A model generated the notes under the pieces. The model was not told the DNA's origin and ran no database searches. It saw nothing but the letters and a program-made list of their open reading frames with translations. DNA of 39,934 nt. It comes from an uncultured Oscillospiraceae bacterium (lineage in GTDB: Bacteria > Bacillota > Clostridia > Oscillospirales > Oscillospiraceae). This document shows, piece after piece, positions 3,074 through 18,251 of this stretch. Made by a program: the position numbers and the translations under genes. Numbering within the stretch: the stretch's first letter is position 1; each line of letters opens with the position of its first letter. The stretch spans positions 1 through 39,934 of the forward strand of contig CANQFV010000024.1 of the NCBI GenBank assembly GCA_947599875.1, in the 5' to 3' direction.

Positions 3074-3487
3074 TCACCATCTCCCGAACCGTCCGAACTC
3101 GATCCCGCCGTACATGTCCTGGATGGCCTCTCCGCCGTCGCTCTCCCGGCGGGCAAAGAAGATGTTCCGCAGCTCCTCATACCGGCTCTGGTAGAAGCTT
3201 GCCGCCGCCGGGTTCTCGTCCACCAGCAGGTTGGCCGCCAGCCCGTACTCCATGACCCCCAGGGCGTAGGTGTCCGGGATCCGCAGCACCGGGTCCTCCA
3301 GCGTCTCCACCTGGGGAAAATGGCACCTGCCCCCGGCGAGGATCCCGTACTCCGCCAGCATCAGATTCACGATCCCCGGCGTGCGCCGCTCATACGTCTG
3401 GGTGTCCCAGTTCTGGGCCTCACCCTCTGACCCCAGCTCATCCATCAGCCCCATCGCCGCGGTGAAAATGTCCTTCACCGTCTTCAT
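3074..3487 (-). CDS. Phage neck/adaptor-like structural protein
   Basis: A 137-residue protein, the last gene of the phage-like operon. The N-terminal KDIFTAAMGLMDELG helix, the aromatic TYERRTPGIVNLMLAEYG segment and the C-terminal helix (DENPAAASFYQSRYEELRN) resemble small head-tail connector or adaptor proteins that dock on the portal. This is a weak family resemblance rather than a motif match. The start codon overlaps the stop of the endolysin by four bases (ATGA), so translation is probably coupled. Its place after the lysis genes is odd, since connector genes usually sit near portal and capsid. It could instead be an unrelated particle protein. Confidence 0.6.
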   Translation of the reverse strand: MKTVKDIFTAAMGLMDELGSEGEAQNWDTQTYERRTPGIVNLMLAEYGILAGGRCHFPQVETLEDPVLRIPDTYALGVMEYGLAANLLVDENPAAASFYQSRYEELRNIFFARRESDGGEAIQDMYGGIEFGRFGRW

Positions 3488-4254
3488 ACCGGCTCTCCCT
3501 CCCCGCTTTTGGCCGCGTCTGCTTTGTCCAGAGCGCGCTTGACCATAATGGCCGCCTCATACCGGGTGGTGAACCGCGCCGGGTCCGACCCGTCGGTGAT
3601 ACCCAGCTCCACCGCCTTTTTGTACTCCCCCTGATCCTCAACCCACTGGGGCAGGTTTTTCCCCCGCAGGTACTCCGTCAGCCGTTTGTAGATCTCCTCA
3701 CCGGTCATTTCCTCGTCCTCCTTTTCCGATAGCGCCCCGGCGATCTCCCCATACTTGGGGCAGATGAATCCCCGGATGTACCGGCCGTTGACGGCCATGC
3801 TCCGGGTCCCGATCCTCCCGCCGGCCGTGTTCCCCTCGGCCACCGTAAAGCCGCCCTGGGACACGGCGGACACGATGCCGATGTGTTCGGCTCTCCCCAC
3901 ATTGTCGCCCCTGCCGTCGTCGTCCCAGTCGTAGACGCAGGCGTCCCCGATCCCGGGCTCATACCCGTCGTCCTCCACCCAGATGCCCCTGGCCTTGGCG
4001 ATCTCGATGAGCCTGTTGCAGGAACACTCCGTTCCGGTGTATCCGGCGATCCCCACGCGTATCCACGCCGCCGAAACCGTGGTTGCGCAGTAGGCGTCCC
4101 CCACCTGCACCCGGTATCCCCGGGCCAGAGGCTCGTGGGCGTTGTAGATGCTCAGGATCTCCTGATGCTCCGCCCCGCCCCGGAGGCCCCCCACCCAGCC
4201 GGACACCGTGTCCGCCACGGCCCGGCGCAGCTCACTCTCCGTCATCGTCCGCAT
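3484..4254 (-). CDS. Endolysin: CHAP-type peptidoglycan hydrolase with SLH-like tail
   Basis: A 256-residue cell-wall hydrolase. The N-terminal half is a CHAP/NlpC-like amidase-endopeptidase: Cys56 in GDAYCATTVSAAW, His124 in AEHIGIV, and Glu140/Asn142 in VAEGNTAGG make up the expected catalytic set. After an acidic linker (about 176-186), residues about 200-250 (YKKAVELGITDGSDPARFTTRYEAAIMVKRAL) resemble half of an SLH-type wall-binding module. It should release particles by cutting host peptidoglycan once the holin opens the membrane. The gene overlaps the holin end by about 23 bases and the adaptor start by four, as expected in a lysis cassette. An alternative start lies three codons downstream. 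Confidence 0.85.
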   Translation of the reverse strand: MRTMTESELRRAVADTVSGWVGGLRGGAEHQEILSIYNAHEPLARGYRVQVGDAYCATTVSAAWIRVGIAGYTGTECSCNRLIEIAKARGIWVEDDGYEPGIGDACVYDWDDDGRGDNVGRAEHIGIVSAVSQGGFTVAEGNTAGGRIGTRSMAVNGRYIRGFICPKYGEIAGALSEKEDEEMTGEEIYKRLTEYLRGKNLPQWVEDQGEYKKAVELGITDGSDPARFTTRYEAAIMVKRALDKADAAKSGEGEPV

Positions 4255-4720
4255 CCTCCGTCATGGCCTGGCCCGTCCGGTCCACGGCGCTCTTTCCGGC
4301 GGCCAGGAGCCTGGGCAGCCACTTGGGCACCGGCGCACCCAGCTTCACGGCGTTTTCCGCCACGCTCCCCAGCTCCGTGATGATGTACCACACCAGCACC
4401 ACCGGCGTCACCAGCCCCCGGAAGTCAAAGGGCAGCCGGATCACCGGCAGATAGGTGAGTACCGCCCACAGCACCAGATCCGTCCCCGCCGACACCAGCA
4501 CCACCCAGACCATGCCCAGCTTGTGCCTGGCCCCGGCCCTGGCCGTCTCGGAGGACCACGTCCCCGTGAGCCACGCCCCCACGCAGCCGGTGATGTAGTC
4601 CAGCGCCATGCACAGGATCCACCCCGCCGCCAGCCATCCCAGCCAGCCCCACAGCCCCGTGAGTACACCGGCCAGCGCCGCCGCCCACAGCTTAAACTTG
4701 TTTACCGTCTCCATCTTCAT
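4232..4720 (-). CDS. Phage holin (Holin_4/TcdE-like family)
   Basis: A 162-residue membrane protein with hydrophobic segments near residues 10-40 (WAAALAGVLTGLWGWLGWLA and the following stretch with DYITGCVGAWLTG), 70-92 and 100-120. DYITG followed by a basic loop (ARHKLGM) is the pattern of Holin_4 phage and toxin-secretion holins. It would form the membrane lesion that lets the neighbouring endolysin reach the wall. The start at 4720 follows GGAGAGAGGA; a longer frame overlapping the tip-protein gene is rejected. Confidence 0.85.
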   Translation of the reverse strand: MKMETVNKFKLWAAALAGVLTGLWGWLGWLAAGWILCMALDYITGCVGAWLTGTWSSETARAGARHKLGMVWVVLVSAGTDLVLWAVLTYLPVIRLPFDFRGLVTPVVLVWYIITELGSVAENAVKLGAPVPKWLPRLLAAGKSAVDRTGQAMTEDADDDGE

Positions 4721-4749
4721 TCCTCTCTCCTGCGCGCACTTCTGCCGCG

Positions 4750-5964
4750 TCAGGGCGTGTACTGGAGCCTGGACCCCATATACCTGTCGAAGTCCGGATC
4801 TCCATCGACATATTCCATGTAATCCACGGAGAAGTTGAACATGCCGCACATGTCCTTTTCTCTCCACATGCCCCCCACATTCAGGGTCCACCACTCACCC
4901 CCCGTGGATACGACCTTCAGATTGTCCGGGATATTCCCGCTCCCCTCCGTGGTGGGGCAGAAGGCCCAGTTCGCCGTCCGGCTCTCCGCAAGTCCCCGGA
5001 TCGTCCCGGAGGCATTCGGCATCTGGACGTCAAGCTTCGTATACCCCTCCTGGGTGTCGTCCGCGAATTTCTCCGGATCCAGGCAGAAGTACACCTCCCC
5101 GTCCTTGACATTGCAGCCGTCCACCAGCTGCCTGATGCCGCCCCAGAGGCCCTCGATCCACCGGTACATCGTCGCCGTCCTGCCGTTTGTGCCCTGCGGC
5201 GTACCGGTGTGATAGGTCATCTCGTCGGTTCCGCCGGACACGGGGGCCGACCCGCCGAAGGCGCCGTAGTCAACGCAGCCCCGCCCGATCTTCCCCTGGG
5301 TGTCCCAGTCCGCCCACTCCAAAAGGATCAGGGCTCCTATGGCACACCAGGTGTCGTAGCTCCAAGCCGACCAGCCCTTCCCCTTGCTCCGCGCCCCGTT
5401 CCGGAACGTGGTGCGGGAGACGATGGCCTTGGGCTTCAGTCCGGACTTGGATACATGCCCCTCCCCGGTGGGATATTTCCCTACATAGCGGCCGGAGCCG
5501 GGGTGTTTGGGGCAGTCCTTGGTGGGGACGCTGGAGATGTAAAAATACACCTTCTCCTCCCCGTCAAAAATCGCCCTGTATCCGAACTCCGGGATGTAGA
5601 CCACCGTGTCGTTGTCCTTCCGGGAGAACCGGGGATCCCCGGACTTCACCGCCGTCCCGTCCGCCAGGATGTTGTACTCCTCCATCCCCGCCCAGGGCAT
5701 CATCGTGTCAAAGGGGCTGGAGCCCTCCAGCGTCCCCGCAGCCGCCACGGGGCCGGCGCCGATGGCCACGGTAACGAGCCTGTTGGGATCGCTCTCCGCC
5801 GTGAGACGTGTCAGCGCCGTGGAGCCGTCGGCCCTGTTCCAGCAGACGCCCACAACGCCCGCCTCCGGCGTCTCCTGCCCCTGGCCGCCGCCTCTGCCGG
5901 CCCTTCCCGCCAGCCACCGTCCCACGGCCATCCCCGCCAAAAAGCTGTTCTTGTCGTAATTCAT
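4750..5964 (-). CDS. Phage tail tip or receptor-binding protein, possible C-type-lectin-like fold
   Basis: A 404-residue protein between fiber and holin. Residues 1-35 include a glycine/arginine-rich stretch; the middle holds a segment rich in aromatic and polar residues (about 85-200). The C-terminal half contains AWSYDTWCAIGALILLEWAD, MYRWIEGLWGGIRQLVDG and GGEWWTLNVGG...CGMFNFSVDY, an order of motifs that recalls formylglycine-enzyme/C-type-lectin-like tip domains used by phages and diversity-generating retroelement targets. No reverse transcriptase or template repeat is in the window, so no retroelement is claimed. The gene lies six bases after the fiber gene. Receptor binding is inference from position and fold impression. 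Confidence 0.65.
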   Translation of the reverse strand: MNYDKNSFLAGMAVGRWLAGRAGRGGGQGQETPEAGVVGVCWNRADGSTALTRLTAESDPNRLVTVAIGAGPVAAAGTLEGSSPFDTMMPWAGMEEYNILADGTAVKSGDPRFSRKDNDTVVYIPEFGYRAIFDGEEKVYFYISSVPTKDCPKHPGSGRYVGKYPTGEGHVSKSGLKPKAIVSRTTFRNGARSKGKGWSAWSYDTWCAIGALILLEWADWDTQGKIGRGCVDYGAFGGSAPVSGGTDEMTYHTGTPQGTNGRTATMYRWIEGLWGGIRQLVDGCNVKDGEVYFCLDPEKFADDTQEGYTKLDVQMPNASGTIRGLAESRTANWAFCPTTEGSGNIPDNLKVVSTGGEWWTLNVGGMWREKDMCGMFNFSVDYMEYVDGDPDFDRYMGSRLQYTP

Positions 5965-5970: not shown

Positions 5971-7986
5971 TCACCACTTGATATCCATAGATTCCCCGTC
6001 GGCATCCGTGATCTTCACCGGCCGCCCCTGGCCGTCGAACTCCACCTGATAGCTGCCCGGCTCCTGGATGCCGTCCATCGTCTGGGTAAACGTCCCGGCG
6101 TCCCAGCCGGAGAAGTCCAGTCCCGTGGGCCTCCGGAGTCCCAGGAGGTCAAGATGCCCCTGATCGTCCGCCACAAGCCCGATATCCCCCTTATCCGAGA
6201 GATGTAAAAGCTCCAGCCCGTCCTTCCTCTTCACGAGCCTGGACTTGTGCCTCCCCTGGGGATTTCCGGCCCCGAAGGTGTCCACCGGCGTGTACGTCCC
6301 GTCGATATTCTCAAAGCCGATGGAGCGCTTCACCTGCTGCGTGTACACATACACCTTCACCGGCCAATCGGATCTGGCGGTGGTGGTGAAGATCCTCTGC
6401 CCGTCCCGGTAGGGGTATCCGTCCTCCCCCAGCTCCGCCCCCGCCGGGTCGTCCTCCCAGTAGATGGGCAGGCCGGAGGGGTTCACCGCCTGTTCCTCGC
6501 TGCCGTCGGTGGAGCCGGTGACAAATTCGATGTACTGCTCGTGGATGCGCACAAAGTTGTCGTCCGTGGTATCCCCCGCCAGGTACTTGACGATCCGCCG
6601 GGAGGTGGACAGCCGGTCAACGGTGAGGTCGGCGATGTCGCCCAGGGCCGCGTACAGCGCGTCGGCGCTGAGCTGCCCGGACACATCCAGATTTCCCTCC
6701 GTCCTGATGTACCCGGAGTAGCTGTTTGGCCCCACCGTCAGGGTGATTTTGGCGCTGACCTGTCCGTCCGCCCCGGCCCCCTGGGTCACCTCCAGCTTGA
6801 TGCCGTCCACCGTGGTCTCGATCTGCGCCGCCCGGCTGTCCAGCCCCTGGGATGTCTCCTCCAGGCTCTCCACCCGCTGGCTGATCTGTCCGGCCTGCAT
6901 CTCCAGCTCCGCCTTGGCCTCACTCACCGCCCCCGTGACTTTATCCGTGACGGTACTCTCCACCTTGGCATCGATGCCGTCAACCGCCGTCTCCAGGGCG
7001 GCCGTCCGCTCCTGCAAGCCCTGGGCGTCCTCCTTCACGGAGGACACCTCCTGGGAGATGGCGTCGGTTGTGACCTTCAGCTCCGCCTTGGCCGCGTCCA
7101 CCGCCCCCGTGACTTTATCCGTGACGGCGCTCTCCACACGGGCGTCGATGCCGTCAACCGCCGTCTCCAGCTCCCCCACGCGGGCCTGGAGGCTCCCGGC
7201 GCTCTCCTCAACGGACTGCACCTGCTGGCGGACCCCGTCCACCGCAACGTCCAGCTCCGCTTTGGCCTCGCTCACCGCCTGCGTCACCTTGTCCGTCACG
7301 GTCTTTTCCACAGTGACGGACAGCCCGTTGACCGTCTCCTCCAGGCTGGCGGTTCTGCTCTCCAGGCCGTCGGCGTCGGAGCGGAGCTGCCGGACATCCG
7401 CAGTGATCTTCTCCGTCGTGATCTCCAGCTCGGCTTTCGCCGCGTCCACTGCCCCCGTCACCTTATCCGTGACGGTACTCTCCACCTTGGCGTCGATGCC
7501 GTCAACCGCCGTCTCCAGCGCCGCCGTCCGCGTCTCCAGGGTCTCGCCGTCCTCCCGGAGCCTGCTCACCTCCTGGGAGATGGCGTCGGTTGTGACCTTC
7601 AGCTCCGCCTTGGCCTCTTCCACCGCCCCCGTCACCTTATCCGTGACGGCGCTCTCCACCTTGGCGTCGATGCCGTCAACCGCCGTCTCCAGCGCCGTCG
7701 TGCGCCGCGTCAGACCGTCTGTCGTCTCCAGCACCGTCTCAACGCCGCTCTCCAGGCCGTCGATCCGGCCCCGCAGCTCCTCCACACCGCCGTCGGGGAC
7801 GAACATGTCCCCCTCCGGGTCAATGTGGACCTGGACTGTCTCCGCCTCCGTCTTCTCCGGCCCCATGACGCCGCCCAGGACTCCCCGGGCGGCCACCGGC
7901 AGCACATATTTCGGCGCCGGCAGGGCGCCCAGCGGCCCGATCTCCACCGTCAGCTCGCCCTGGGGGCTAAGCTCTGATTCCACCAT
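5971..7986 (-). CDS. Phage tail fiber / host-specificity protein with five coiled-coil repeats
   Basis: A 671-residue fibrous protein. After an N-terminal segment (1-70) come five tandem 58-residue repeats at about 98-387, each with LETAVDGIDAKVES, TDKVTGAV..AKAEL and a variable half ending LxxRTA. The pattern of hydrophobic positions suggests a trimeric coiled-coil shaft. After residue 400 a globular C-terminal part (SAKITLTVGPNSYSGYIRTE, then LSADALYAALGDIADLTV) looks like siphovirus/Gram-positive phage fiber or appendage tips. It would extend from the particle to the cell surface. The start was chosen at the first Met, 30 bases after the previous gene's end. The repeat count could vary between strains. 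Confidence 0.8.
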   Translation of the reverse strand: MVESELSPQGELTVEIGPLGALPAPKYVLPVAARGVLGGVMGPEKTEAETVQVHIDPEGDMFVPDGGVEELRGRIDGLESGVETVLETTDGLTRRTTALETAVDGIDAKVESAVTDKVTGAVEEAKAELKVTTDAISQEVSRLREDGETLETRTAALETAVDGIDAKVESTVTDKVTGAVDAAKAELEITTEKITADVRQLRSDADGLESRTASLEETVNGLSVTVEKTVTDKVTQAVSEAKAELDVAVDGVRQQVQSVEESAGSLQARVGELETAVDGIDARVESAVTDKVTGAVDAAKAELKVTTDAISQEVSSVKEDAQGLQERTAALETAVDGIDAKVESTVTDKVTGAVSEAKAELEMQAGQISQRVESLEETSQGLDSRAAQIETTVDGIKLEVTQGAGADGQVSAKITLTVGPNSYSGYIRTEGNLDVSGQLSADALYAALGDIADLTVDRLSTSRRIVKYLAGDTTDDNFVRIHEQYIEFVTGSTDGSEEQAVNPSGLPIYWEDDPAGAELGEDGYPYRDGQRIFTTTARSDWPVKVYVYTQQVKRSIGFENIDGTYTPVDTFGAGNPQGRHKSRLVKRKDGLELLHLSDKGDIGLVADDQGHLDLLGLRRPTGLDFSGWDAGTFTQTMDGIQEPGSYQVEFDGQGRPVKITDADGESMDIKW
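6826..7695 (-). repeat. Five 174-bp tandem repeats inside the fiber gene
   Basis: The 58-codon unit recurs five times without a gap. DNA such as GTCACCTTATCCGTGACGG is repeated almost unchanged between units, while the second half of each unit varies. High DNA identity makes the array open to copy-number change by recombination or slippage. Confidence 0.9.
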
Positions 7987-8016: not shown

Positions 8017-8343
8017 TTAGATCACCGTCTGACTCAGGGCATCCGCCGCCGCGAAGACCGGCATCCTCCTGGTCCCCAGCACCGTGCCCCCGTTGAACTT
8101 CACCCGCACGTCAAAGGGCACGCCGTCGTCCGGCGGCAGGGAGAAGGTGTCCTTCTGGGAGAGGGGTACCTGAAAGCACCCCTCCCCCTGGTCATACGTC
8201 ACCTCTCCCGGATACGTCTTCCGCACCCTGCCCAGGGTGAACTCGGCGGCCTCCACGCTGTGGATATCCACGCCCTCGCCGTTGAGAAGCACCGTCACGG
8301 GCAGGAGGAAGGCGTCACCCTGCTTTACATTATATGCCGGCAT
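8017..8343 (-). CDS. Small phage structural protein, beta-rich (baseplate/fiber-base-like)
   Basis: A 108-residue protein (MPAYNVKQGDAF start) between capsid and fiber. Predicted beta strands dominate (DAFLLPVTVLLNGEGVDIHS, VEAAEFTLGRVRKTYP, FDVRVKFNGG), recalling Ig-like or BppU N-terminal modules of phage appendages. No catalytic motif is visible. The start at 8343 is supported by GGGGAA about five bases upstream and overlaps the capsid gene end by 14 bases; a Met five codons earlier is less well placed. Confidence 0.65.
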   Translation of the reverse strand: MPAYNVKQGDAFLLPVTVLLNGEGVDIHSVEAAEFTLGRVRKTYPGEVTYDQGEGCFQVPLSQKDTFSLPPDDGVPFDVRVKFNGGTVLGTRRMPVFAAADALSQTVI

Positions 8344-9166
8344 CTGACTTCCCCGCATAGATGCCGTTTTTCACGGCGTCCAGCACAAAGCAGTCGTGGA
8401 GGAGCCGTCCCTGTACCACCGCGCCGTCGATATCCGGATGCTCCTCCAGGATGCGGTACGTCTCGATCTTCTTGGGCGCCACAGCGCAGCCCCGGCGGAC
8501 GATGAGGAAGACCACGTTCTCCGGCATGTAGTCGTCGGGCACCACCCGCACCTGCATCCCGTCAATGGTTCCGCACACCCCGTTGACCAGGGTCTCCTCC
8601 GCCAGCTTGTCCACGCCGACGACCTGGTCGGCCAGCTTCACCTTGATGGCCTCGCTCTCCCCGATGTACAGCACCCGGCCCTCCCGGGGCACCATCTGGT
8701 TGCTCATCTCCACGCCCGCCTTCATGATGGTCTCGATGGCGTTCTCCCGGGTCAGGGTGATGTTGGTGCCCGTGAGGCCCGCCCCCTGGGCCAGCTTCTT
8801 CAGGCGGTACTTGTCCACATAGGGGATGATCACCTCGTCGGTCTGGCGTCTCAGCACCGTGGAGGCCGCCTTGACCATCATCTGGCTGGTGTTGTTCCCC
8901 TTGTCGATGGAGCCGTTAAAGGCCTTGTCGTCGCCTACGGTCATCTCCTGGACGGTGTCCCCCAGCTCCGTGAGCTTCCCGAAGCGGCTGCCGTCCTCCT
9001 TCTCCCTCTCGTAGTCCTGCAGGGGCAGCTTGTCCACGCTGTACACCTGCACCGTGGCCACCCCCGTCCACTTGTACCGGTTGGAGAAGATCCCCTCGGT
9101 GCAGGAACCCAGCCTGAACCGCTCCACCACCTTGTCGGAAGCTCTCTTTGCCAAATTGATCGCCAT
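8330..9166 (-). CDS. Major capsid protein
   Basis: A 278-residue protein that follows the scaffold gene. The N-terminal INLAKRASDKVVERFRLGS..., YKWTGVATVQVYSVD, the FNGSIDKGNNTSQMMVKAAS segment and the RRQTDEVIIPYVDKYRLKKL helix match a family of clostridial phage coat proteins with an HK97-like fold. The C-terminal part (AVAPKKIETYRILEEHPDIDGAVVQGRLLHD) is also typical of that family. It would form the icosahedral shell around the packaged DNA. No prohead protease is encoded nearby, consistent with a scaffold-dependent, non-cleaved assembly. AAAGGAGAGACG precedes the start. Distinction between capsid subfamilies needs a structure or profile search. Confidence 0.8.
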   Translation of the reverse strand: MAINLAKRASDKVVERFRLGSCTEGIFSNRYKWTGVATVQVYSVDKLPLQDYEREKEDGSRFGKLTELGDTVQEMTVGDDKAFNGSIDKGNNTSQMMVKAASTVLRRQTDEVIIPYVDKYRLKKLAQGAGLTGTNITLTRENAIETIMKAGVEMSNQMVPREGRVLYIGESEAIKVKLADQVVGVDKLAEETLVNGVCGTIDGMQVRVVPDDYMPENVVFLIVRRGCAVAPKKIETYRILEEHPDIDGAVVQGRLLHDCFVLDAVKNGIYAGKSDAGI

Positions 9167-9340: not shown

Positions 9341-9763
9341 TCACAGGAGCGTGTCCCAGCCCTCGTCAAAGGCATCTCTCACCGGCCCCCCGGAGCCGGA
9401 CATGCTCCCGGCGGAGCGCTCCCGGTTCACTCTCTCCCGCTGGCGGATGTCGTTCTCGGCCCGGAGCCGGGCGTTCTCCTGCCGCAGGATATCCGCCTCG
9501 TAGCGGGTGTAGGCCTCCGTCAGCTTCTCCCCGTCCCGGACCCGGTTCCACACCTCATCCGGCACATCCGACGCCCGCACCTCCGGGTAGGTCTGGGTAA
9601 AGCGCAGGATCTCCCTGCTCCTGTCCGCGTCCGCCTCCTCCGGGGCCTGCTGCGGGATCTCCTCCCCGGGCAGAGGCTCCGCCTCCCGCTGGTCGCAGAT
9701 CACGCCCCCCGCCTCGTCCTCGAAGCCCTGGGTGAACACGTCCGTCCTCTCCTCACTTTCCAT
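9341..9763 (-). CDS. Capsid scaffolding protein
   Basis: A 140-residue acidic, highly helical protein between portal and capsid, the standard place for scaffolds. The N-terminal 50 residues are Glu/Asp/Gln-rich; residues about 80-118 form a charged helix (YTRYEADILRQENARLRAEN) typical of a coiled-coil scaffold, followed by a glycine-serine turn and a short C-terminal end. It would guide coat assembly and then leave the prohead. It overlaps the portal gene end by 11 bases. Confidence 0.8.
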   Translation of the reverse strand: MESEERTDVFTQGFEDEAGGVICDQREAEPLPGEEIPQQAPEEADADRSREILRFTQTYPEVRASDVPDEVWNRVRDGEKLTEAYTRYEADILRQENARLRAENDIRQRERVNRERSAGSMSGSGGPVRDAFDEGWDTLL

Positions 9764-11306
9764 TCCGGCTCTCCTCTCTCTCCCGGCGCAGCTGACGGAT
9801 CAGCCCGCGCCTGTCGTTTACATACCCGTCGGGTATCCGCTCCAGATACTGGACGATGTCGATCCGCCCCTGGCTCAAAAGATTGTCCAGCGTCTGGATG
9901 GACGCGATCTCGGAGTAATAGGCGCTGGCCCCCACGTCGATCTTCAGCGCCATCGGCATCCTCCGAAAGACGCCGAAGTCAAAATCCACCGGCTCGCCGC
10001 CCTCCGTGTCCACCGGCCGCGTCCCGTAGAAGCCGCCGATGAACTCCAGATAGATCCTGGCCAGCTCCTCCACGCACAGGCGCAGGTTCTGCCTGGTGAT
10101 CTCGCTGGGCGTGGCCGCCGCCCTCTGCAGGGCGATAATGGCTGAGGTGTTGTCCGGCCTTGCATCCCCCAGGGCCACGCTGGTGGCCCCCAGATTGGCG
10201 TTTGTCTGCTCGATAGCCGCCTTCAGAAACTGGTTCACCTGGGGGGAGATCACCGCCGGTTCCATCGTCCTGGCGGCGCTGGCCAGATCTCCGCTGTTGA
10301 TGCCGATGGCCTGCCCCACCTGGTTGGACCACCGTGGGATCCTGGTCTTGTCGTAGATCACCTTGGGGTACGCCGTGGTCATCAGCGAGAGCATCACCAT
10401 CGACCACATCTTGTTGATAAAGATCTGGTTGGGGATCAGCCCCGTGATCATCGCCTGCCCGTGGTAGCAGTCCTGGACGTAGTCCCAGTTGAGCCACACC
10501 AGGGGATACAGCCGGATCCCCAAGGGGAAGGGCGGCCTCAGGGCGTGGCCCCGGACGCACTCATACCCCCAGATCTCCCCGGAGGCCCCGTCCCGCCACA
10601 AAAACAGCAGCTTGGTGGTCTTCCCGTCCACCTGTCTCTCCGGCCCGGCGGGGTGGGGATCCTCCTGCGCCTCGATGCTCTCCCAGTCCTCGTCCCCCCG
10701 GCTCCTGGCCCTGTTTTGCAGCTTCCTGACGCTCTCGCGGCTCTCCAGGATGATGTAGGGCTGCGTCTGCACCCGCCTGTCGTTGGGATCGCCGAAATAC
10801 ACCCTGGTGTTCAGCAGCACCTCGGACTTCACCGTCCCGCCGCCCTCCTCCGGATCCCAGTAGGTGTAGATGCACCCGTCCCCCCGGACGGCGGCGTCCC
10901 TGGCAAACTGCCGGATCAGCCCCGTGACCCGGTTGTGTTCAAAGAGACTCTCAAACTCCTCGCTCAGCACCCTGGCCGGGCCGTCCAGCCTCCCGGTGCC
11001 CGGCGTGGCCCGGAGGGGCGTGGCCTGCACCGCCAGGTTGTCGGAGGTGATGGAACTCACCACGAAGCACACATCCCGCTTCAGGATGTTGAACACCGGC
11101 GTGGGCAGGCCCTGATCCCGGACCCCCTCCCACTGCTTGCCGATGAAGAAATTCTCGTTCAGGTTCACGTTCTCGTAGAGCCCTATGGCATCCTTGAAGC
11201 TGCGCCCCCTCTCGTAGAGCCTCCACACCGCCTCCGGCGTCACCTCCCGGCTCCGGAAGGCCTCTCCGGCCTGCCCGGAGGGGCCTCTCTCCCGTTCACT
11301 CCTCAT
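9753..11306 (-). CDS. Portal protein, podovirus (P22-like) type
   Basis: A 517-residue portal. NENFFIGKQWEGVRDQGLPTPVFNILKR at about 48-76 is a classic portal entry motif; VFNILKRDVCFVVSSITSDN, GDGCIYTYWD and the ARIYLEFIGGFYG helix follow in family order. The central PNQIFINKMWSMVMLSLMTTAYPKVIYDK segment and the later SAIIALQRAAATPSEITRQNLR fit the P22/Bcep-type short-tailed phage portals. Twelve copies would form the ring through which DNA is packaged by the terminase and to which the tail tube docks. It overlaps its neighbours by 11 bases on both sides. Confidence 0.85.
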   Translation of the reverse strand: MRSERERGPSGQAGEAFRSREVTPEAVWRLYERGRSFKDAIGLYENVNLNENFFIGKQWEGVRDQGLPTPVFNILKRDVCFVVSSITSDNLAVQATPLRATPGTGRLDGPARVLSEEFESLFEHNRVTGLIRQFARDAAVRGDGCIYTYWDPEEGGGTVKSEVLLNTRVYFGDPNDRRVQTQPYIILESRESVRKLQNRARSRGDEDWESIEAQEDPHPAGPERQVDGKTTKLLFLWRDGASGEIWGYECVRGHALRPPFPLGIRLYPLVWLNWDYVQDCYHGQAMITGLIPNQIFINKMWSMVMLSLMTTAYPKVIYDKTRIPRWSNQVGQAIGINSGDLASAARTMEPAVISPQVNQFLKAAIEQTNANLGATSVALGDARPDNTSAIIALQRAAATPSEITRQNLRLCVEELARIYLEFIGGFYGTRPVDTEGGEPVDFDFGVFRRMPMALKIDVGASAYYSEIASIQTLDNLLSQGRIDIVQYLERIPDGYVNDRRGLIRQLRREREESRNGK

Positions 11307-11544
11307 GCTCCAGCTCCCTTCTCGCCGCCCGCCTGGCCTCCGTCAGGTCGTAGCGCATCATCTGGTCAAAGCCCCTCTGCCACTCCGGCTCCCCGCCGGC
11401 GTCCCCGGGGCTTTTCCGCCTCTCCGGCCCTCTCAACGCAAGGGCCCCCCTGGCGGCCGCGATGCCCGCCAGGATCGCCGCCTCCGCCAGGAGTACCGCC
11501 GCCTCCGCGGCAAATATCCGCTTCATCTCCGTCCCCCCGCTCAC
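11296..11544 (-). CDS. Small membrane-anchored protein of the phage-like operon
   Basis: An 82-residue protein (GTG start) with one hydrophobic segment (FAAEAAVLLAEAAILAGIAA, near residues 10-30) and a charged C-terminal part. The GTG start at 11544 overlaps the stop of the preceding gene (GTGA), pointing to coupled translation; an ATG at 11526 is an alternative. No family was recognised. A role in particle assembly or DNA entry is guesswork from position only. Confidence 0.6.
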   Translation of the reverse strand: MSGGTEMKRIFAAEAAVLLAEAAILAGIAAARGALALRGPERRKSPGDAGGEPEWQRGFDQMMRYDLTEARRAARRELEHEE

Positions 11545-12497
11545 AGGCCCATCCTGGCCGCCAGGTCGTCGTTCTTGGCCCGCCAGGCGTCGTACATGGT
11601 GCGGATCTCACTGTCCGTGTACCCCAGCGCCCTGTACCCGGAGAAATCCCCGAACTCCGCCAGGGTCTCCGCCCGTCTTCTGGCCCTCTCGTAGCTTTCG
11701 CTCTGGGCCTTGACCTGGGATTCGTAGCTGCGGTAGTCCTCATCCGCCTGCTCCCTGGCGGTACTCACCCGGGATTCCTCCTCTTTCCTGTACTCCGCCA
11801 GCAGCGCCTCGGCCCGCTCAAACTCCCCCTGGGCCACGGCCTGGGCCAGATCGTTCCGGTAGCGGACTTTCAGCTGCGTCAGGCTGTCCATAAGCTTTGT
11901 GGCGGCCTCCGCCTCCTGCCGGCCCAGGCTGTTGAGGTCGGCCTGGAGCTGATTTGCCCTGGCAAGCTCCGCCTGACCGCCGGCGCCGGAGGCAAGCCCC
12001 GCGGCCGACGCGTACTCCCGGAAATTCCGCCCGCTCTGCTCCGACAGGGCCGCCGCGGCGTTTTTCTGCTCCTGGTAGACCCCCGGCACGCTGCGCATCT
12101 CCTGCCGGATAGCGGCGTCGCTCTCCTCAAAGGCCCCGCGAAGCTCCGCCTCCCTGGCCTTCTGCGCCGCGTCGTACACCCGGTTCACCTGATCCGTCCC
12201 GGCCCTGTACCCGGGCAGCTGCGCCGGGGTATAGCCGTCTTTGACGGACACCTGGCCGTTCGCCTCCTGCCCGGATGTCCCGCTCCCGGCCCGGCTCCCC
12301 AGCTCCACGAACCCGCTGCCGTCCCGGGTCCCGGAGTAGTCGGCCTCCGCCCGGACTCTCTCCGCCGCGGCGTGGGCCGCCTCCATCCCGGCCTTGTCGC
12401 CCCTGGCCCGCGCCTGGTTCCAGGCCTGGGTGAAGGCCTGGATCTTCTTTTTCTGCTCCTCGTTGAGAAACTGCTGGTCATATGTGGACAGCGCCAT
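11541..12497 (-). CDS. Helical Ala/Gln-rich virion protein, ejection- or internal-protein-like
   Basis: A 318-residue, mostly helical protein between tail tube and portal. Residues about 1-60 hold the motif FLNEEQKKKIQAFTQAWNQA followed by RGDKAGMEAAHAAAERVRAE and YSGTRDGSG, a short module I have seen repeated in other Firmicute proteins (GD.AGM..AH..AE.IR). Residues 100-300 are long amphipathic helices with LAQAVAQGEFERAEALLAEY. Podovirus genomes place internal ejection proteins here, and the composition fits, so DNA-ejection or internal core protein is the best guess. The C-terminal ALGYTDSEIRTMYDAWRAKN is distinct and may bind a partner. Confidence 0.55.
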   Translation of the reverse strand: MALSTYDQQFLNEEQKKKIQAFTQAWNQARARGDKAGMEAAHAAAERVRAEADYSGTRDGSGFVELGSRAGSGTSGQEANGQVSVKDGYTPAQLPGYRAGTDQVNRVYDAAQKAREAELRGAFEESDAAIRQEMRSVPGVYQEQKNAAAALSEQSGRNFREYASAAGLASGAGGQAELARANQLQADLNSLGRQEAEAATKLMDSLTQLKVRYRNDLAQAVAQGEFERAEALLAEYRKEEESRVSTAREQADEDYRSYESQVKAQSESYERARRRAETLAEFGDFSGYRALGYTDSEIRTMYDAWRAKNDDLAARMGL

Positions 12498-12518: not shown

Positions 12519-15137
12519 TCATCGGACAAATCCCATGCCCCGCACCCGCATGTCCGCGGATACTACGGTACATGTCCTGTCCGCCGTGTTGTTGGCTAAA
12601 ATCAGCTTGTAGTAAGTAAATTTCCTGGCCCGGAGCCGGACCCTCTGCGTCTCCGGCACGTCGCCGGAGGCCCCGCCGCGCACATCGAACACGGCAAAGT
12701 CGCTGTCCCTGTCCGTCTTGGCCGTCACCTCCAGGTATCCCTGATCCTCCGGCTTGATGCCCACCCAGATCATAGCGGAGTATTTCCGCCGGAAGTCCTC
12801 CTTGAAGCTCATGGCCCCGGACTCCCACAGCGCGTCAATGGCCTCCCCGTTGTCGGAGAAGTACTCCTCCGAAAAATGCCGGAGGAACCCGTCCCGTGTG
12901 CCGTAGTACAGCCCGTCCTTGTAGTTGATCATGCAGGTGGCCCCCAGCCCCGTGTACACGCTCCAGGCGTCCACGTCCAGATTCTGCACCAGGGCCGTGC
13001 CGTCCTGCCCGATGACGTAGTACTCGTGCTTATACTTGTCATAAAACGTCCTGGCCCTCTCCAGATCAAAGGTTCGTATGGTGTTGTCTACCCGCTGGCT
13101 GACCCGCTGGGCGTTTCGCTGATCCCCGGTGATGCCGGAGGAGCCGGTGGACATCCACTCGATGACGCTCCTGCCGTCCAGGGTCCGGGGCCTGTTCTGC
13201 ACCAGCTGCGCCTGGCCCCAGGCGCAATTTCCGATGGCCCGGTTCACCGGCCTTATGTAGAACCCCGCCGTCACCGTCCCGTCCACCAGGGTGATGGTGT
13301 CGTAGGCGATGGCCCAGGCGGAGTCCGTCTTGAAGGCCATGAGCTTGTCATAGTGGCGGATCATCGCCGTGACGGGGGTGTTGGCGTCCCCCACCGCCAC
13401 CTGGTAGAGATCCGGGAAGTAGTCCGCCCTGGGCCTGCCCTCGTAGTCCAGCCCGGAGTAGAGGGCCACGTTGGAGCCGTCGCCGTAGAGGAACACCCTG
13501 GTGTCCTGCGCCCCGTTGAAAAGCTCCGCGAACCGCATCCCCTCCACCTGGCCCCGCTGGTGGTTTGGGGCCGTCCAGCCGATCTCCAGGCTGTTGATCC
13601 CCCGCTTGGGGGGCGTCTCAAAGGTCACCGTCCCGGCCTCCGGGTCGGCGGAGTACCCGGGCACGGCCCCGCCGGAGGGGTCCTTCACCCAGTCCACGCT
13701 CACCGCCCCCGTCTCCGGCAGCCGGAAGACCGTGGCCTCCCCGTCCGGGGAGAACCGGCACCGTCTGGCCCCCGTCAGGCGGTTGACGTTCTCCAAGAGC
13801 GTCCCGCCCCCGCCGGGTTCCACGGACACCGCCACCATCGGCCTGTATCCCTCCACCTCCCGGAGCCGCTCCCCGTCCCACACCAGGTACTTCTTCCCGT
13901 TGAGGATGTAGAGCTTCTTGTCAAAGCCGAACATATGCACGTCCTGCCCGGTGTCCATCTCCCCGGCGGAGACCTTTGTCCAGACGCCGTCCTCCTCCCT
14001 CAGCTCCCACAGGGCGCCGGAGCAGGCCGCGCACAGGACCTCCCGCTCCCCCACGAAGCCGGCCCAGATCCCCCGGACTTGGGCGTCCTCCGCCTCTCCG
14101 GGGGCCGTGGCGTACACTTCGTTAAAGCACCACTCGTTGAGGTCCGCGCTCACCGTCAGGGGGAACCCCCAGAAGCTGTAGGCCCTCTCGTAGCTCTCCC
14201 CGGCCTTCGTGTCCCGGACGTAGCAGTAGAGCGTCTTGACAAGGCGCATCACCGTGTATGTCACCCCCTCCCGGGAGAAGGTGCCCGCATAGGCGTACCC
14301 CCTGTCCGCGTCGGGGTACTCCCCCCGGGGCGCCGTCACCTCCCCCAGGGCCTCCCCCGGGAGGTATTCGCCGCCGCTCTCCTGGCAGCTGTACTTCTTC
14401 CACCGGCTGATGAGGGTGAAGCCGTCCACCTTGGCCCCGTAGTAGCGGTACAGCCGCCCCCGCTCCAGCACATAGCCCCCCTCATCCCGGGTGACGAAGC
14501 CCGTCTGCGTCCCCAGGGGCCGCTCTCGCCTGGTGACGCTCCCCCGGACGCCCACCTGGTCGTCCCGGACATAGGCCTCCCCGTACACCTCCAGGGCCTC
14601 CGCGCCCTGGGCAGACCCCGGTGCGCGGGGATCTGTCCCCGTCTCCACGCCGGAGGCCAGCTTCTCCATCATCATGGGCGTGGCCCTGCCGCCGGAGATG
14701 GCCTCCGTCCCCGCCCCGGGGTAGGAGTCGCACCGGATAAAGGCGTACACCCTCCCGTTTTTGGGGAAGTAGTACCCTGTGTACTCCCCGGCGTTCTCCC
14801 TTGTCACCGTCACGGCCTCCCCCTGGGCCGTCAGTGTCCCCATGCCGTCCGCCGTGACTCTGGGGTACATCCCGTACCCCTGGGAGAGGCCCCGGTCAAC
14901 CGCCAGAACGACCCCCTCCCCCTGTCTTGTCCGGGTCTCGTACCCGGTGAGAAGTCCCGCCACATTCCGGCTCCCCGGCCTCTTTTTCAACGCCCCGCCG
15001 GAGGTGACGCAGAAGTTGCGCATCTTCGCCGCCTCCCCCATCCGGAGTCTGGCCTCCCCCTCCGGCGCCTCGTTCACCCCGTGCCAGACGGAGATGTTAA
15101 AGATCTTCTCGCTGATCCTCGTGACTATCGATGCCAT
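12519..15137 (-). CDS. Large tail tube / nozzle protein (T7 gp12-like)
   Basis: An 872-residue structural protein, the largest of the operon. Near the N-terminus, RLRMGEAAKMRNFCVTSGGA followed by KKRPGSR is the signature of podovirus tail tubular B/stabilisation proteins (NF.V...GAL..RPG). Many beta-rich segments follow, and RYYDKLMAFKTD-like and WMSTGSSGITGDQR-type motifs in the second half fit beta-propeller nozzle proteins. It would extend the portal into the short tail. The start at 15137 is chosen because GGAG lies eight bases upstream; a Met 18 codons earlier overlaps the terminase. It begins 13 bases after the terminase stop. Confidence 0.75.
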   Translation of the reverse strand: MASIVTRISEKIFNISVWHGVNEAPEGEARLRMGEAAKMRNFCVTSGGALKKRPGSRNVAGLLTGYETRTRQGEGVVLAVDRGLSQGYGMYPRVTADGMGTLTAQGEAVTVTRENAGEYTGYYFPKNGRVYAFIRCDSYPGAGTEAISGGRATPMMMEKLASGVETGTDPRAPGSAQGAEALEVYGEAYVRDDQVGVRGSVTRRERPLGTQTGFVTRDEGGYVLERGRLYRYYGAKVDGFTLISRWKKYSCQESGGEYLPGEALGEVTAPRGEYPDADRGYAYAGTFSREGVTYTVMRLVKTLYCYVRDTKAGESYERAYSFWGFPLTVSADLNEWCFNEVYATAPGEAEDAQVRGIWAGFVGEREVLCAACSGALWELREEDGVWTKVSAGEMDTGQDVHMFGFDKKLYILNGKKYLVWDGERLREVEGYRPMVAVSVEPGGGGTLLENVNRLTGARRCRFSPDGEATVFRLPETGAVSVDWVKDPSGGAVPGYSADPEAGTVTFETPPKRGINSLEIGWTAPNHQRGQVEGMRFAELFNGAQDTRVFLYGDGSNVALYSGLDYEGRPRADYFPDLYQVAVGDANTPVTAMIRHYDKLMAFKTDSAWAIAYDTITLVDGTVTAGFYIRPVNRAIGNCAWGQAQLVQNRPRTLDGRSVIEWMSTGSSGITGDQRNAQRVSQRVDNTIRTFDLERARTFYDKYKHEYYVIGQDGTALVQNLDVDAWSVYTGLGATCMINYKDGLYYGTRDGFLRHFSEEYFSDNGEAIDALWESGAMSFKEDFRRKYSAMIWVGIKPEDQGYLEVTAKTDRDSDFAVFDVRGGASGDVPETQRVRLRARKFTYYKLILANNTADRTCTVVSADMRVRGMGFVR

Positions 15138-15150: not shown

Positions 15151-16530
15151 TCATCCGTATTCGATATACCCCCTGGTGGGTTCCCCGCCAAAGAGGAAGG
15201 TGAGATCCGGCCCCTCCTCCCCGGTCTCCCCGGCGGGCAGGGACGGCGCCACCCGGCTGACGCAGTAGTAGCGCAGCGCGTCCACGGTGTGAGTCACCTC
15301 GTGCGGCTCCCTGGCGCAGTCGTTGGGATCCCTGTCGTCGGCCTGGATCACCGTCAGATCCCCGATGAGCCTCTGGCACGCCCGGGAAACCGTTAAAAAC
15401 GGCCTCCCGTCCCGCCCGGGGGCCAGCATATCCTTCACCATCATGTGGCCCTGCACCCGGTTGTTGTCCGCCCGGGTCAGGGCCACTCCGCATTCCCGAA
15501 AGATCTCCTCCATCGTCCGCCCGGAGTCCTTCTGCCGGCTCCACAGGTCAGGCGGCGCGAAGGTCGCCGTGATCTCCTCCCCCGGCAGAGTCCGCTCCAA
15601 GATCCCCCTGGCCGCGTCCCGGACGATCAGCCCCTCCCGGGTCCACTCCCGGTAGACGTGGCTTCGCCCCTCCTCGTCCACGGCCACCCACAGCACCGCC
15701 AGCATGTCCAGGCCGTAGTCCAGGGCCCTGTACCGCCTCCAATGCTCCGGCAGCCTCTCGGGCTCCCTGGTGTGTACGTCGTACCGGAACTCCCGGAAGT
15801 AGCAGCCCCCCAGGGCGTCCCAGTCCCCGTACCTGTACGCCCTGCGCACATTCTCCGGCATCTGCGCCAGCATATTCAGGTAGTTTGGCGAGCTTTTCAG
15901 CAGGAAGACATTGTCCTCCACCGTGGCGGGGATAAAGCTGTAGTCCTCCGGCCTCTCGTTCTCCTCCGGATCCGGGGAGTCCGTCCTGAAATCCCTGTCC
16001 ACAAACAGCCTCTTCACCCACCCGTGGCCCACGCCGCCCGGGTTGCAGGTGAGGTACATCCGCTTGTCGTAGGGGCTGACGCCCCTCAGGCACCCCTTTA
16101 AAAAGTGGAAGGCCCTCTCCGTAAACTGCGTGGCCTCGTCGATGAAGATCCAGTCAAACTCCTGTCCCTGATACTCCAGCTCCGAGGCGTCCCCGGCCCA
16201 GTGCCCGAATTTGATGGTGGAACCGTTGAAAAAAGTCATCCGTCTAACCGACGCGGTGTACGTCCCCATCTCCTTGGGCACCGACCGGACAAGGGGCCTG
16301 ATGTGGTTCTCCTCCAGCTCCGGATACGTCCTTCGCATGATCAGGATCCGTATGCCGGGGTTGCCGATGGCCCCGCCCACGGCTTTGGTGCGCACGGCCC
16401 AGGTCTTCCCCCCGCCCTTGGCGCCGCCGTAGGCCACAAACGGGGTCCTGGCCAAAAAGAAGAGCTTCTGCTTCTCGTTGGCCGTGCCCCCGTCCCAGAC
16501 CGCCCCTCCCCCCAAATTCCCTTTTCCCAT
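15151..16530 (-). CDS. terL: Terminase large subunit
   Basis: A 459-residue DNA-packaging motor. The ATPase has Walker A GGAKGGGKT at 35-43, Walker B WIFIDE at 127-132 and the coupling motif TCNPGG at 161-166. The RNase H-like nuclease starts with ALDYG (Asp271) and ends with HTVDALRYY (Asp417), so both domains look intact. It cuts concatemeric DNA and pumps it through the portal. The intact active sites matter here because the island lacks integration and replication genes: the packaging machine at least is not obviously decayed. Confidence 0.92.
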   Translation of the reverse strand: MGKGNLGGGAVWDGGTANEKQKLFFLARTPFVAYGGAKGGGKTWAVRTKAVGGAIGNPGIRILIMRRTYPELEENHIRPLVRSVPKEMGTYTASVRRMTFFNGSTIKFGHWAGDASELEYQGQEFDWIFIDEATQFTERAFHFLKGCLRGVSPYDKRMYLTCNPGGVGHGWVKRLFVDRDFRTDSPDPEENERPEDYSFIPATVEDNVFLLKSSPNYLNMLAQMPENVRRAYRYGDWDALGGCYFREFRYDVHTREPERLPEHWRRYRALDYGLDMLAVLWVAVDEEGRSHVYREWTREGLIVRDAARGILERTLPGEEITATFAPPDLWSRQKDSGRTMEEIFRECGVALTRADNNRVQGHMMVKDMLAPGRDGRPFLTVSRACQRLIGDLTVIQADDRDPNDCAREPHEVTHTVDALRYYCVSRVAPSLPAGETGEEGPDLTFLFGGEPTRGYIEYG

Positions 16531-16539: not shown

Positions 16540-16962
16540 TTACTTCAAAGCCTCAACGCCCCCCAGCCCGTCCACCTTCACGGTGAACTGGGCCTTGTCC
16601 GGCTTTCCCGGCTTTTCCTCCTTCTCCTTGTAGCCGCCGTTCTCCGACTGCATCAGATTGAACCGGGCGAAGCTGGCCGTCTTTCCGTCCTTCCGCTCCC
16701 GCTCCAGCCAGAAGAAGGTGCGAAACTCCTCCCACCGCTTGGCCGCCCTGTAGCGGCCCATGATCTCCGATCCCCCGTGGGCCTCGCCCCGGTTCACGGC
16801 CTCGCCCCGCTCCACATACGCCTCCAGCTTCTCCTCCGGCACATCCGTGAATTTGTGGAGGACAAAGGCCACCGGCGCCTCCCCCGTCTCCATGCAGTGG
16901 GCGATGCACCTGTCAATGGCCTCCCCCAGCTCCCGGCTCCGGTACTCCCTGCTTTTTCCCAT
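16540..16962 (-). CDS. Terminase small subunit-like protein
   Basis: A 140-residue charged protein just upstream of terL. An N-terminal helical part (YRSRELGEAIDRCIAHCMET, VPEEKLEAYVERGE) could bind DNA; the middle YRAAKRWEEFRTFFWLERER and the acidic-basic C-terminus are unassigned. Position fits the small terminase subunit that selects DNA for packaging, but the sequence did not match a family I know well. GGAG lies nine bases before the start at 16962; a longer frame upstream lacks support. Confidence 0.6.
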   Translation of the reverse strand: MGKSREYRSRELGEAIDRCIAHCMETGEAPVAFVLHKFTDVPEEKLEAYVERGEAVNRGEAHGGSEIMGRYRAAKRWEEFRTFFWLERERKDGKTASFARFNLMQSENGGYKEKEEKPGKPDKAQFTVKVDGLGGVEALK

Positions 16963-16990: not shown

Positions 16991-17194
16991 TTACGCCCGC
17001 TCCACGTCAAAGCCCAAAAGCTCCAGCTTCTCCCGGCCGGAAAGCCCCGCCCACTCCGCGTCCGCGCAGTCGGCGCACACGATCCTGCCCCGGTCTCGCC
17101 CGTACAGCTCCCCCGGCAGGATCTCGTTGAGACAGACGTGACAGCAAAGCTCGCCTCTCTCCGGATCGGGCATCCCCCGATCCCCCGCCGCCAT
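16991..17194 (-). CDS. Small protein with a four-cysteine zinc site, first gene of the operon
   Basis: About 67 residues with CxxC (CHVC) and a second CxxC (CADC) some 20 residues later, the spacing of a zinc ribbon or knuckle. The C-terminal WAGLSGREKLELLGFDVERA is helical. The start is unsure: ATG at 17194 is listed, ATG at 17173 and GTG at 17233 are possible. As the first gene behind the late promoter it may be a DNA-binding packaging or late-gene factor, but this is inference. Confidence 0.6.
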   Translation of the reverse strand: MAAGDRGMPDPERGELCCHVCLNEILPGELYGRDRGRIVCADCADAEWAGLSGREKLELLGFDVERA

Positions 17195-17282: not shown

Positions 17283-17400
17283 GAATCTGAGGAAAAGTCC
17301 CGTCGCAAGCTCCCGCTGCCGTCCTTTTTCCCAGGCTCCCCGGAGGAACTTTCCCGCCGCCCGGATCCTTTCCGTTCACGCTGAATCAAGTGATTTCTGC

Positions 17401-17429
17401 TTGACCTCCCTTGACTCTGGCTGTATTAT
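17401..17429 (+). promoter_or_regulatory. Promoter of the repressor-protease pair
   Basis: TTGACC (17401-17406), 17-base spacer, TATTAT (17424-17429), reading into the Xre-type gene that starts at 17499. Its -10 element shares bases with the -10 of the minus-strand late promoter. Confidence 0.7.
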
Positions 17430-17453
17430 ACTTGATTTCAGCGCAAATGTCAA
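17425..17453 (-). promoter_or_regulatory. Late promoter of the phage-like operon
   Basis: On the minus strand a perfect TTGACA (17453-17448), 17 bases, and a perfect TATAAT (17430-17425). An AATCAAGT operator lies in its spacer (17437-17430), so repressor binding would block it. It is the only strong minus-strand promoter seen ahead of the structural genes; transcription would begin near 17418. Confidence 0.85.
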
Positions 17454-17498
17454 GTAGGAAATCAACTAAAATCAAGTATTTGTAGAGGTGCCCAAATC

Positions 17499-17849
17499 AT
17501 GTATGAGATTTTTGTGCAGCTTTGCCAGGAGCGCGGCGTCACCGCCTACCAGGTGGCCAAGGAGGCCGGGGTAGATCAGGCCACGCTCACCCGCTGGAAG
17601 GCGGGGACAGTGAAGCCCCGGGACAGCACGCTCCGAAAGATCGCGGATTTCTTTGGCGTCTCTCTCGCCCGTCTGAAGGGGGAGTCCCCCGCCCCGGAGG
17701 AGCCGGAGCTTACGGAGCTTTTGGAGATGCTGCGCACCAGGAGCGAGTGCCGTATGCTCTTCTCCCTGGCCAAGGACGCCAGCCCCGAGGATGTCCGCCG
17801 CGCCGTGAAGATCATCGAGGCGCTGCGCAGTGCGGAGGGGAAGGAATAA
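17499..17849 (+). CDS. Xre/Cro-CI-type phage repressor
   Basis: A 116-residue protein. Residues about 3-60 are a Cro/C1 helix-turn-helix (VTAYQVAKEAGVDQATLTRW, then KIADFFGVSLARL); the C-terminal part is helical (LTELLEMLRTRSECRMLFSL, ASPEDVRRAVKIIEALR) and may dimerise. It likely represses the divergent late promoter and its own promoter through AATCAAGT sites. The next gene is an ImmA-like protease that could inactivate it, an arrangement known from ICEBs1 (ImmR/ImmA) and PBSX (Xre/XkdA). Confidence 0.85.
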   Translation: MYEIFVQLCQERGVTAYQVAKEAGVDQATLTRWKAGTVKPRDSTLRKIADFFGVSLARLKGESPAPEEPELTELLEMLRTRSECRMLFSLAKDASPEDVRRAVKIIEALRSAEGKE

Positions 17850-18251
17850 GTGTGGACGCCTGACTATTTCCTCCGCTATGTGGACTTCCCTCCCGGGGTG
17901 GAGGGGGTTACGGTCCCCAACTCCGACGGCACCTTTGACATCTATATCAACGCCCGCCTGGGGGAGACGCGGCGTCAGGAGTGCCTGGAGCATGAGCTTC
18001 GCCATATCCGCCGGGACCACTTCTATTCCGGCGGCGATGTGGAGACGCTGGAGGCGGAGGCCGGCGGCCGGCGCCCCCGCTTCTCACGCCTGACGCTCTT
18101 CGATCACCCCTCCCCCACCCATATCCCCCTCTTCCCCTCTCTGGACGCCCTGGGGGACTATCTGGCCTTGATCGAGTCGGCTTTGAGCGCCCCCGCATCC
18201 CCGCCCGGGGCCGATTTTCCGGTGCCTTCGGGAGAAATTAAAAAAAAGTAA
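17850..18251 (+). CDS. ImmA/IrrE-like zinc metallopeptidase (anti-repressor)
   Basis: A 133-residue protein with GTG start placed directly after the repressor's stop. HELRH at residues 48-52 is the HExxH zinc site, and VETLEAEA (64-71) supplies the probable third ligand Glu. The rest matches the small ImmA-type fold, which cleaves Xre-family repressors on DNA damage or other signals. The C-terminal 40 residues are proline- and serine-rich and end in a lysine run. Derepression of the late promoter by this protein is inference from the known pair. Confidence 0.8.
   Translation: MWTPDYFLRYVDFPPGVEGVTVPNSDGTFDIYINARLGETRRQECLEHELRHIRRDHFYSGGDVETLEAEAGGRRPRFSRLTLFDHPSPTHIPLFPSLDALGDYLALIESALSAPASPPGADFPVPSGEIKKK

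Follow-up and report, generated by a model that had tools for sequence, protein, structure and literature searches.

The 39,934-nt stretch analysed here (contig CANQFV010000024.1 of an uncultured Oscillospiraceae bacterium; hereafter the window) contains, at positions 3074-18251, a ~15-kb operon for a short-tailed phage particle and an adjoining Xre/ImmA gene pair, and all 17 of its listed open reading frames (ORFs) are open. We propose, at a probability of roughly 0.6, that this island is a domesticated short-tailed phage kept by the host genus as a particle factory, probably packaging host DNA. A gene transfer agent (GTA) seems more likely than a killing particle, and by analogy with the GTA recently found in Faecalibacterium the island may package and transfer host DNA. 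An initial annotation of the window had read the island as a candidate domesticated particle, with a decayed prophage as the rival. Domestication is favoured over decay because of genus-wide retention, purifying selection, the absence of a recombinase from 21 islands and the presence of a podovirus nozzle; it is tempered by a shared site in only 11 of the 21 islands and by the existence of related phages with replication genes. The short-tailed particle operon beside an Xre/ImmA pair is borne out by open frames and family matches, and the G+C content, described as host-like, is 0.61-0.69 across the island and 0.60-0.65 at 18-31 kb.

Retention was examined in 34 genomes of the genus, including that of the window, each from a different species and consisting of metagenome-assembled genome (MAG) contigs. 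TerL matches were found in 30 of the 33 other genomes and capsid matches in 28 of all 34, some of them second-lineage or partial copies, while TerL matched in none of three other genera of the family and in 12 of 23 genomes of other families. The arrangement Xre/ImmA-TerS-TerL occurs in 20 of the 34 genomes; these and G011, whose contig stops at TerL, are referred to as the 21 islands. In G007 and G021, Xre and ImmA are some kb distant. No TerL or capsid match in the genus contains an internal stop. Portal coverage is at least 93% in 20 of the 21 islands, the remaining one being cut by a contig end.

The purifying selection on terL, portal and capsid that had been suggested as a check was seen as low ratios of nonsynonymous to synonymous substitution rates (dN/dS) in all 14 pairs compared, which represent 18 of the 21 islands and three smaller elements (Nei-Gojobori estimates, rough under biased codon use). 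Values were 0.04-0.21 for TerL, 0.06-0.36 for the portal, 0.02-0.26 for the capsid, 0.12-0.34 for the nozzle (12 pairs) and 0.01-0.18 for rpoB (the 11 pairs having rpoB). In the closest pair, G020-G005, dS is 0.13 for rpoB versus 0.12, 0.14 and 0.11 for TerL, portal and capsid; the corresponding values are 0.11 versus 0.22, 0.17 and 0.12 for G012-G002, 0.18 versus 0.25, 0.20 and 0.11 for G015-G022, 0.22 versus 0.10, 0.07 and 0.07 for G025-G028, and 0.25 versus 0.44, 0.30 and 0.26 for G019-G001. It should be noted that functional phages are likewise under purifying selection, and hence the argument needs selection, co-divergence and the lack of mobility genes together. Trees of two host genes (rpoB and alaS) and of five island proteins, built for 21 genomes that represent 18 islands plus the three smaller elements, have 9 of 18 splits in common, against a mean of 0.18 and a maximum of 4 in 5000 label permutations. 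Their distances correlate at 0.985 over all genomes and at 0.688 over the 17 nearer ones, and 0 of 5000 permutations were as high in either case. Shallow groups are concordant between the trees and deep nodes conflict; the purifying selection along host descent expected of a GTA is present, with these deep conflicts.

The chromosomal site is shared in part. All or part of a Gly-Arg-His-Gln-Lys tRNA cluster, sometimes inverted, lies near the ImmA end in 10 of the 21 islands, including that of the window, and a short-chain dehydrogenase/reductase (SDR) or polyphosphate kinase gene lies beyond the adaptor end in 8; combined, this evidence places 11 of the 21 in one neighbourhood. The conserved synteny suggested as a test of domestication is seen in these 11 only; 9 others have different neighbours on their readable sides, and a single conserved site, considered as proof of vertical descent, is only partly true. 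Among the 9, prfA is a common neighbour in G015, G017 and G022, enolase is a neighbour in both G031 and G027 and is also within 26 kb of the G022 island, and dapF and rnf genes (read by eye) adjoin the G012 island and lie 5-26 kb from that of G033; the G004 and G032 islands have none of these neighbours. G023 is counted in neither group. Only the ImmA side is readable for G012, G017, G027, G032 and G033. The SDR gene is found 14 kb past the adaptor end in G022, and on another contig in G031, G015 and G004.

None of the 17 window ORFs was recognised as an integrase, excisionase or replication gene in Pfam and PHROG scans, and a tyrosine integrase hidden Markov model (HMM) built from 12 IMG/VR integrases, together with one serine recombinase query, found no recombinase in the window and no match inside any of the 21 islands. 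These results bear out the reported lack of integrase and replication genes: the window holds a particle cluster without them, as expected of a GTA, and not the integrase and replication genes of an active temperate prophage. The HMM is able to detect integrases, since it matched in IMG/VR records and on a prophage contig of G017 (L317, 1.4e-64; L318, 1.9e-12). Flanks were read for up to 20 kb in one stretch, several stopping at contig ends. A tyrosine (1.1e-13) and a serine (6.4e-10) recombinase (L199) lie between the G022 island and its SDR gene and are read as a separate insertion beside the island. Serine recombinases also occur ~0.9 kb upstream of TerS in G026 and G028 (L181, L179) and ~7 kb upstream in G025 (L327). 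These three genomes carry smaller elements by tRNA-Ala (L180 in G025, L181 in G026, L179 in G028) with homologs of TerS, TerL, portal, capsid, adaptor and nozzle and without an adjacent Xre/ImmA pair.

Five tRNA genes lie at 18307-18961, the only matches to Rfam at gathering thresholds, and the nearest, tRNA-Gly, has its 5' end toward the island. The window holds no convincing attachment (att) pair, in keeping with the initial annotation, although it does hold one 103-nt repeat pair, 93% alike, at 2735 and 20028 that encloses the island and the tRNA genes. As an att candidate this pair was set aside as a dispersed repeat, a reading that is not proof, since its 42-nt core has seven copies in the window, including others near 19.4, 19.7, 23.6, 39.4 and 39.9 kb. 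Dispersed intergenic repeats with the core GGGACGGTT are found at 2732-2837, 19366-20130, 23615-23656 and 39386-39907, and the enclosing pair could mediate rearrangement.

Phages related to the island exist both outside and inside the genus. The IMG/VR temperate podoviruses L081, L090 and L100 have TerL proteins 55-61% identical to that of the window and homologs of portal, scaffold, capsid, adaptor and nozzle, but unlike the island they are 38-39 kb contigs with a tyrosine integrase each; a recombinase was found in 13 of 20 long IMG/VR records chosen from 80 loci. Among named phages, the best TerL match is 51.7% to an unannotated 9.6-kb faecal record and the best capsid match 41.2%, and the named relatives of the island are Oscillospiraceae MAGs. 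L075, L076 and L140, classed as viral in IMG/VR, have TerL proteins 65-69% identical to that of the window, and L076 agrees with the bacterial contig L067 both in TerL length and in the spacing of TerL to TerS, which suggests that some of the three may be chromosomal islands filed under viruses. A second TerL, 69-76% identical to that of the window, is present in G002, G017, G023 and G033. In G017 it is accompanied by a PriCT_2/AAA_25 protein, a DEAD/ResIII helicase and RusA, on a contig that also carries an integrase; homologs of these three proteins occur in G023 and G033, and the G002 contig stops before the region. The G002 second-lineage TerL (L185) matched in two overlapping pieces and may be broken or misassembled. 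We read these loci from their gene content as probable true prophages that provide an internal contrast to the islands. In the portal tree they fall outside all islands except that of G004 (support 95). A phage relative with replication genes had been named as evidence that would undo domestication; such relatives do occur, both among sister species and within the G017 genome itself, and one of them carries an integrase, but they stand as a separate second lineage beside the island, and hence the domestication reading is not undone.

The 890-aa ORF, which had been called a tail tube, is instead a P22 gp10-like podovirus tail nozzle by fold, and with it the island has both a P22-type portal and a P22/T7-type nozzle, as in a podovirus-type particle. 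PDB sequence searches with the nozzle (as a profile) and the capsid gave no match. The nozzle is ~870-1040 aa long in most islands of the genus versus mostly 600-770 aa in IMG/VR relatives (exceptions, at 975-1193 aa, are L075, L086 and L140), and its N-terminal part is less conserved. No tape measure was found among the 17 ORFs in the PHROG scan, in agreement with the initial annotation, apart from weak coiled-coil matches of the fibre. Repeats 2-5 of the tandem array in the fibre gene resemble the first at 63-83%. Depending on the species, the small gene g113 follows either the capsid gene or TerL, and the position of g318 shifts as well, indicating that modules shuffle within the island.

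The idea of a podovirus-like GTA is not new. FpGTA of Faecalibacterium prausnitzii was reported in January 2026 as the first of its kind, with ~40-nm particles, ~9-kb DNA and structural proteins identified by mass spectrometry (PMC12946183). As described there, FpGTA I and II resemble the island in being podovirus-like, in encoding TerS, TerL, portal, scaffold and capsid, and in lacking replication genes. Within this gene set the window has TerL, portal and capsid by family, the nozzle by fold, and TerS and scaffold by position only. FpGTA, compared by description only, has its fibre, holin and endolysin in a second operon, whereas the window island has both parts in one operon, has an adjoining Xre/ImmA pair and belongs to a different genus. 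The novelty here lies in a single operon that comes with a fibre, lysis genes and a switch of its own and is found outside Faecalibacterium. The same paper also reports DNA packaging of the GTA type in Onthomonas (Oscillospiraceae), for which no strong operon candidate emerged; its search of four MAGs gave one in Faecalibacterium only. No other such report on gut Clostridia, Oscillospiraceae, Faecalibacterium or podovirus-like GTAs of Firmicutes was found in the literature collection searched. Among longer-known systems, PBSX of Bacillus subtilis is a domesticated particle that likewise has an Xre-type repressor with an ImmA-like partner beside its particle operon; it is long-tailed, whereas the island has a P22-type portal and nozzle. 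RcGTA of Rhodobacter resembles the island in that its particle genes are kept by the host, but it is long-tailed and alphaproteobacterial.

Parts of a putative switch and of a packaging motor recur among the islands. The perfect sigma-70 consensus lies in the gap before Xre, and a promoter matching at least 11 of 12 positions was found in 16 of 19 islands versus 17 of 3800 shuffled regions. HExxH is retained in the ImmA-like protein of all 20 islands (of 21) from which the gene was recovered. For the terminase active sites, described as intact, pattern matching finds TerL Walker A and B in 21/21 islands, the first nuclease motif in 17/21 and the last in 20/21, the one miss of the last being due to a contig end. 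TerS has no Pfam or PHROG match; its AlphaFold model (predicted local distance difference test score, pLDDT, 86.5) has an N-terminal helical domain followed by long helices, and a fold search gave no match down to the E 0.001 cut-off (best 0.71). Where a helix-turn-helix would have its recognition helix, the TerS helix carries a net charge of -2 to -5 in 19/19 island rows (G004, at -2, is counted elsewhere). The charge runs from -1 to +1 in 7 rows placed in the second lineage from their sequence and from -4 to +1 in 13 further genome rows, and it averages -0.04 (range -2 to +3, 8 rows at -2) over 53 IMG/VR rows; the rows are related, and the test value of this comparison is a guide only. The idea that phage TerS recognition helices are basic, suggested by 8 of 11 positive charges in the first rows, was dropped in view of the IMG/VR mean. 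An acidic helix may mean weaker specific DNA binding, which would match the FpGTA TerS, described without an obvious DNA-binding domain in a passage that cites RcGTA on that point (PMC12946183).

From these parts a working scheme can be suggested. Xre would act at the divergent promoter region and hold the particle operon shut until stress, e.g., DNA damage, leads the ImmA-like protease to remove it, whereupon the consensus promoter would drive the operon. The TerS/TerL motor would then fill heads with host DNA from no specific start site, as we propose because the TerS recognition helix became acidic, and the holin and endolysin would lyse a few cells. The particles would inject host DNA into kin, as a GTA, or, less likely, would only kill. 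With no recognised genes for replication or integration, the 15-kb island would not be expected to propagate as an independent virus.

The features are collected in Table 1, where window ORFs were annotated by Pfam and PHROG scans. No firm family match was obtained for the scaffold, adaptor, TerS or ejection protein, which are named from position, and the adaptor g137 has no family match in either scan. Codon usage prefers later starts in six genes: those of TerS, the zinc-ribbon-like ORF, the nozzle, the holin and g113 are the ones tabulated, and that of ImmA would be 17898, although its start is kept at 17850 because of a good ribosome-binding site there.

Table 1. Features of the island and the evidence for each
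Feature	Position	Strand	Basis
ImmA-like metalloprotease, HELRH motif	17850..18251	+	weak phrog_87 1.1e-3, phrog_20886 1.2e-8
Xre-type repressor	17499..17849	+	HTH_3 1.6e-12
Consensus sigma-70 promoter TTGACA-17-TATAAT, facing particle operon	17425..17453	-	12/12 match
Small zinc-ribbon-like ORF, operon gene 1	16991..17194	-	codon usage; cysteine pairs by eye; homologs in 17 loci including the window's
Putative TerS, acidic helix at recognition-helix position	16540..16962	-	position before TerL; helical AlphaFold model
TerL	15151..16530	-	Terminase_3 5e-12; phrog_979 3.6e-44
Tail nozzle, P22 gp10 / T7 gp12 type	12519..15137	-	fold
Putative internal/ejection protein	11541..12497	-	sequence character and position only; cluster g318 in 16 loci
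Small conserved ORF	11296..11544	-	cluster g82 in 15 loci
Portal, P22 type	9753..11306	-	P22_portal 2.7e-15; phrog_156 2.2e-26
Putative scaffolding protein	9341..9763	-	position between portal and capsid; weak phrog_14606
Major capsid protein	8330..9166	-	phrog_422 (major head protein) 1.9e-41
Small ORF g113	8017..8343	-	gene maps: follows capsid or TerL in relatives
Tail fibre with five 174-nt repeats	5971..7986	-	repeats at 6901-7770; coiled-coil matches
Tail protein / fibre tip	4750..5964	-	phrog_5302 4.9e-37
Holin	4232..4720	-	PF05105 7.8e-27
CHAP endolysin	3484..4254	-	PF05257 1.2e-5 (at cut-off); phrog_21357 3.1e-20
Putative head-tail adaptor g137, last gene of operon	3074..3487	-	homolog after capsid in phage relatives, e.g., L081, L090

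Several observations weigh against a domesticated particle that packages host DNA. The island is known here from its genes, and the genomes are MAG contigs, several of which are cut within the island. Deep tree conflict implies that the island has also been exchanged between species: island data reject three host groupings in approximately unbiased (AU) tests (p-AU 1.4e-234, 1.8e-5 and 1.6e-4) and host data weakly reject two island groupings (p-AU 0.023 and 0.045), the tested groups having been picked after the trees were seen. Measured by the strict standard for a GTA, a host-congruent tree and one locus, the islands show these AU conflicts and a common neighbourhood in only the 11 noted above. 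Smaller genes are less constrained (dN/dS 0.10-0.68 for the scaffold, up to 0.64 for the lysin and up to 0.50 for Xre), the fibre region is highly variable between loci of the genus, the TerL tree places the second lineage among the islands with weak support, and the contrast in TerS charge with IMG/VR phages is not clean.

The same domesticated particle might instead act, like PBSX, as a bacteriocin against relatives, delivering no useful DNA and with the fibre setting its target. Such a role would suit the PBSX-like Xre and ImmA switch and the variable fibre and lysin region, but a packaging ATPase and nuclease under purifying selection are not obviously required for it, even if PBSX itself also packages DNA, and we regard it as unlikely. 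The FpGTA authors leave the same choice open (PMC12946183). More improbable still is a mobile satellite, or a phage moved in trans, that borrows integrase and replication from co-resident prophages. Differing neighbours among subclades and the deep tree conflict could be so explained; in addition, a related prophage with an integrase occurs in the same genome in G017, and serine recombinases lie close to the smaller elements (G025, G026, G028) and next to the island of G022; yet 10 of 21 islands lie by the same tRNA cluster, the window has no convincing att pair and the 5' side of the tRNA faces the island, and most satellites are without a particle gene set of their own, which the island has. 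Strongly disfavoured is a decayed remnant, i.e., a temperate podovirus in the course of disappearing, with its early and integration half already gone. Recombinase-bearing phages that share the module do exist, among the long IMG/VR records and as one prophage in G017, but about 20 species carry the same reduced gene set where differing remains would be expected, TerL and capsid are free of internal stops throughout the genus, dN/dS of the main genes is far under 1, and dS in close pairs is rpoB-like.

Domesticated islands of this kind may extend beyond the genus. In the Gemmiger-type family, TerL matched in 67 of 247 sampled genomes. Four of the 14 loci fetched there (L304, L305, L309 and L311) combine an ImmA-type ORF with nearby genes for TerS, TerL, portal, capsid and nozzle. 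Xre was called in three of them, and the recombinase searches gave no match in any of the four. L305 and L311 share flanking genes, have TerL proteins 54-55% identical to that of the window and fit the published account of FpGTA I; the capsid protein of L305 falls in a different family (phrog_1357, versus phrog_422 in the window). L312-L314 (G304, G235 and G141) form a further TerL group with an open frame of 508 aa, a G+C content of 0.65-0.66 and flanking genes in common; adjacent Xre and ImmA-type ORFs are present in L313, and the group is possibly another domesticated island. We tentatively raise the possibility, itself doubtful, that Xre/ImmA-controlled integrase-less podoviral islands are an old GTA lineage over several families of the order, with FpGTA as one branch, whose particles spread and replace the island between species by homologous recombination. 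Such particle-borne replacement would explain both the shallow agreement with the host tree and the deep conflict.

The island offers a candidate operon type for Oscillospiraceae, the family in which packaging in Onthomonas had no strong candidate (PMC12946183). Having fibre, lysis and switch genes in one unit makes it easy to test. If host DNA is packaged, gene transfer through domesticated short-tailed particles would be widespread among the abundant Clostridia of the gut.

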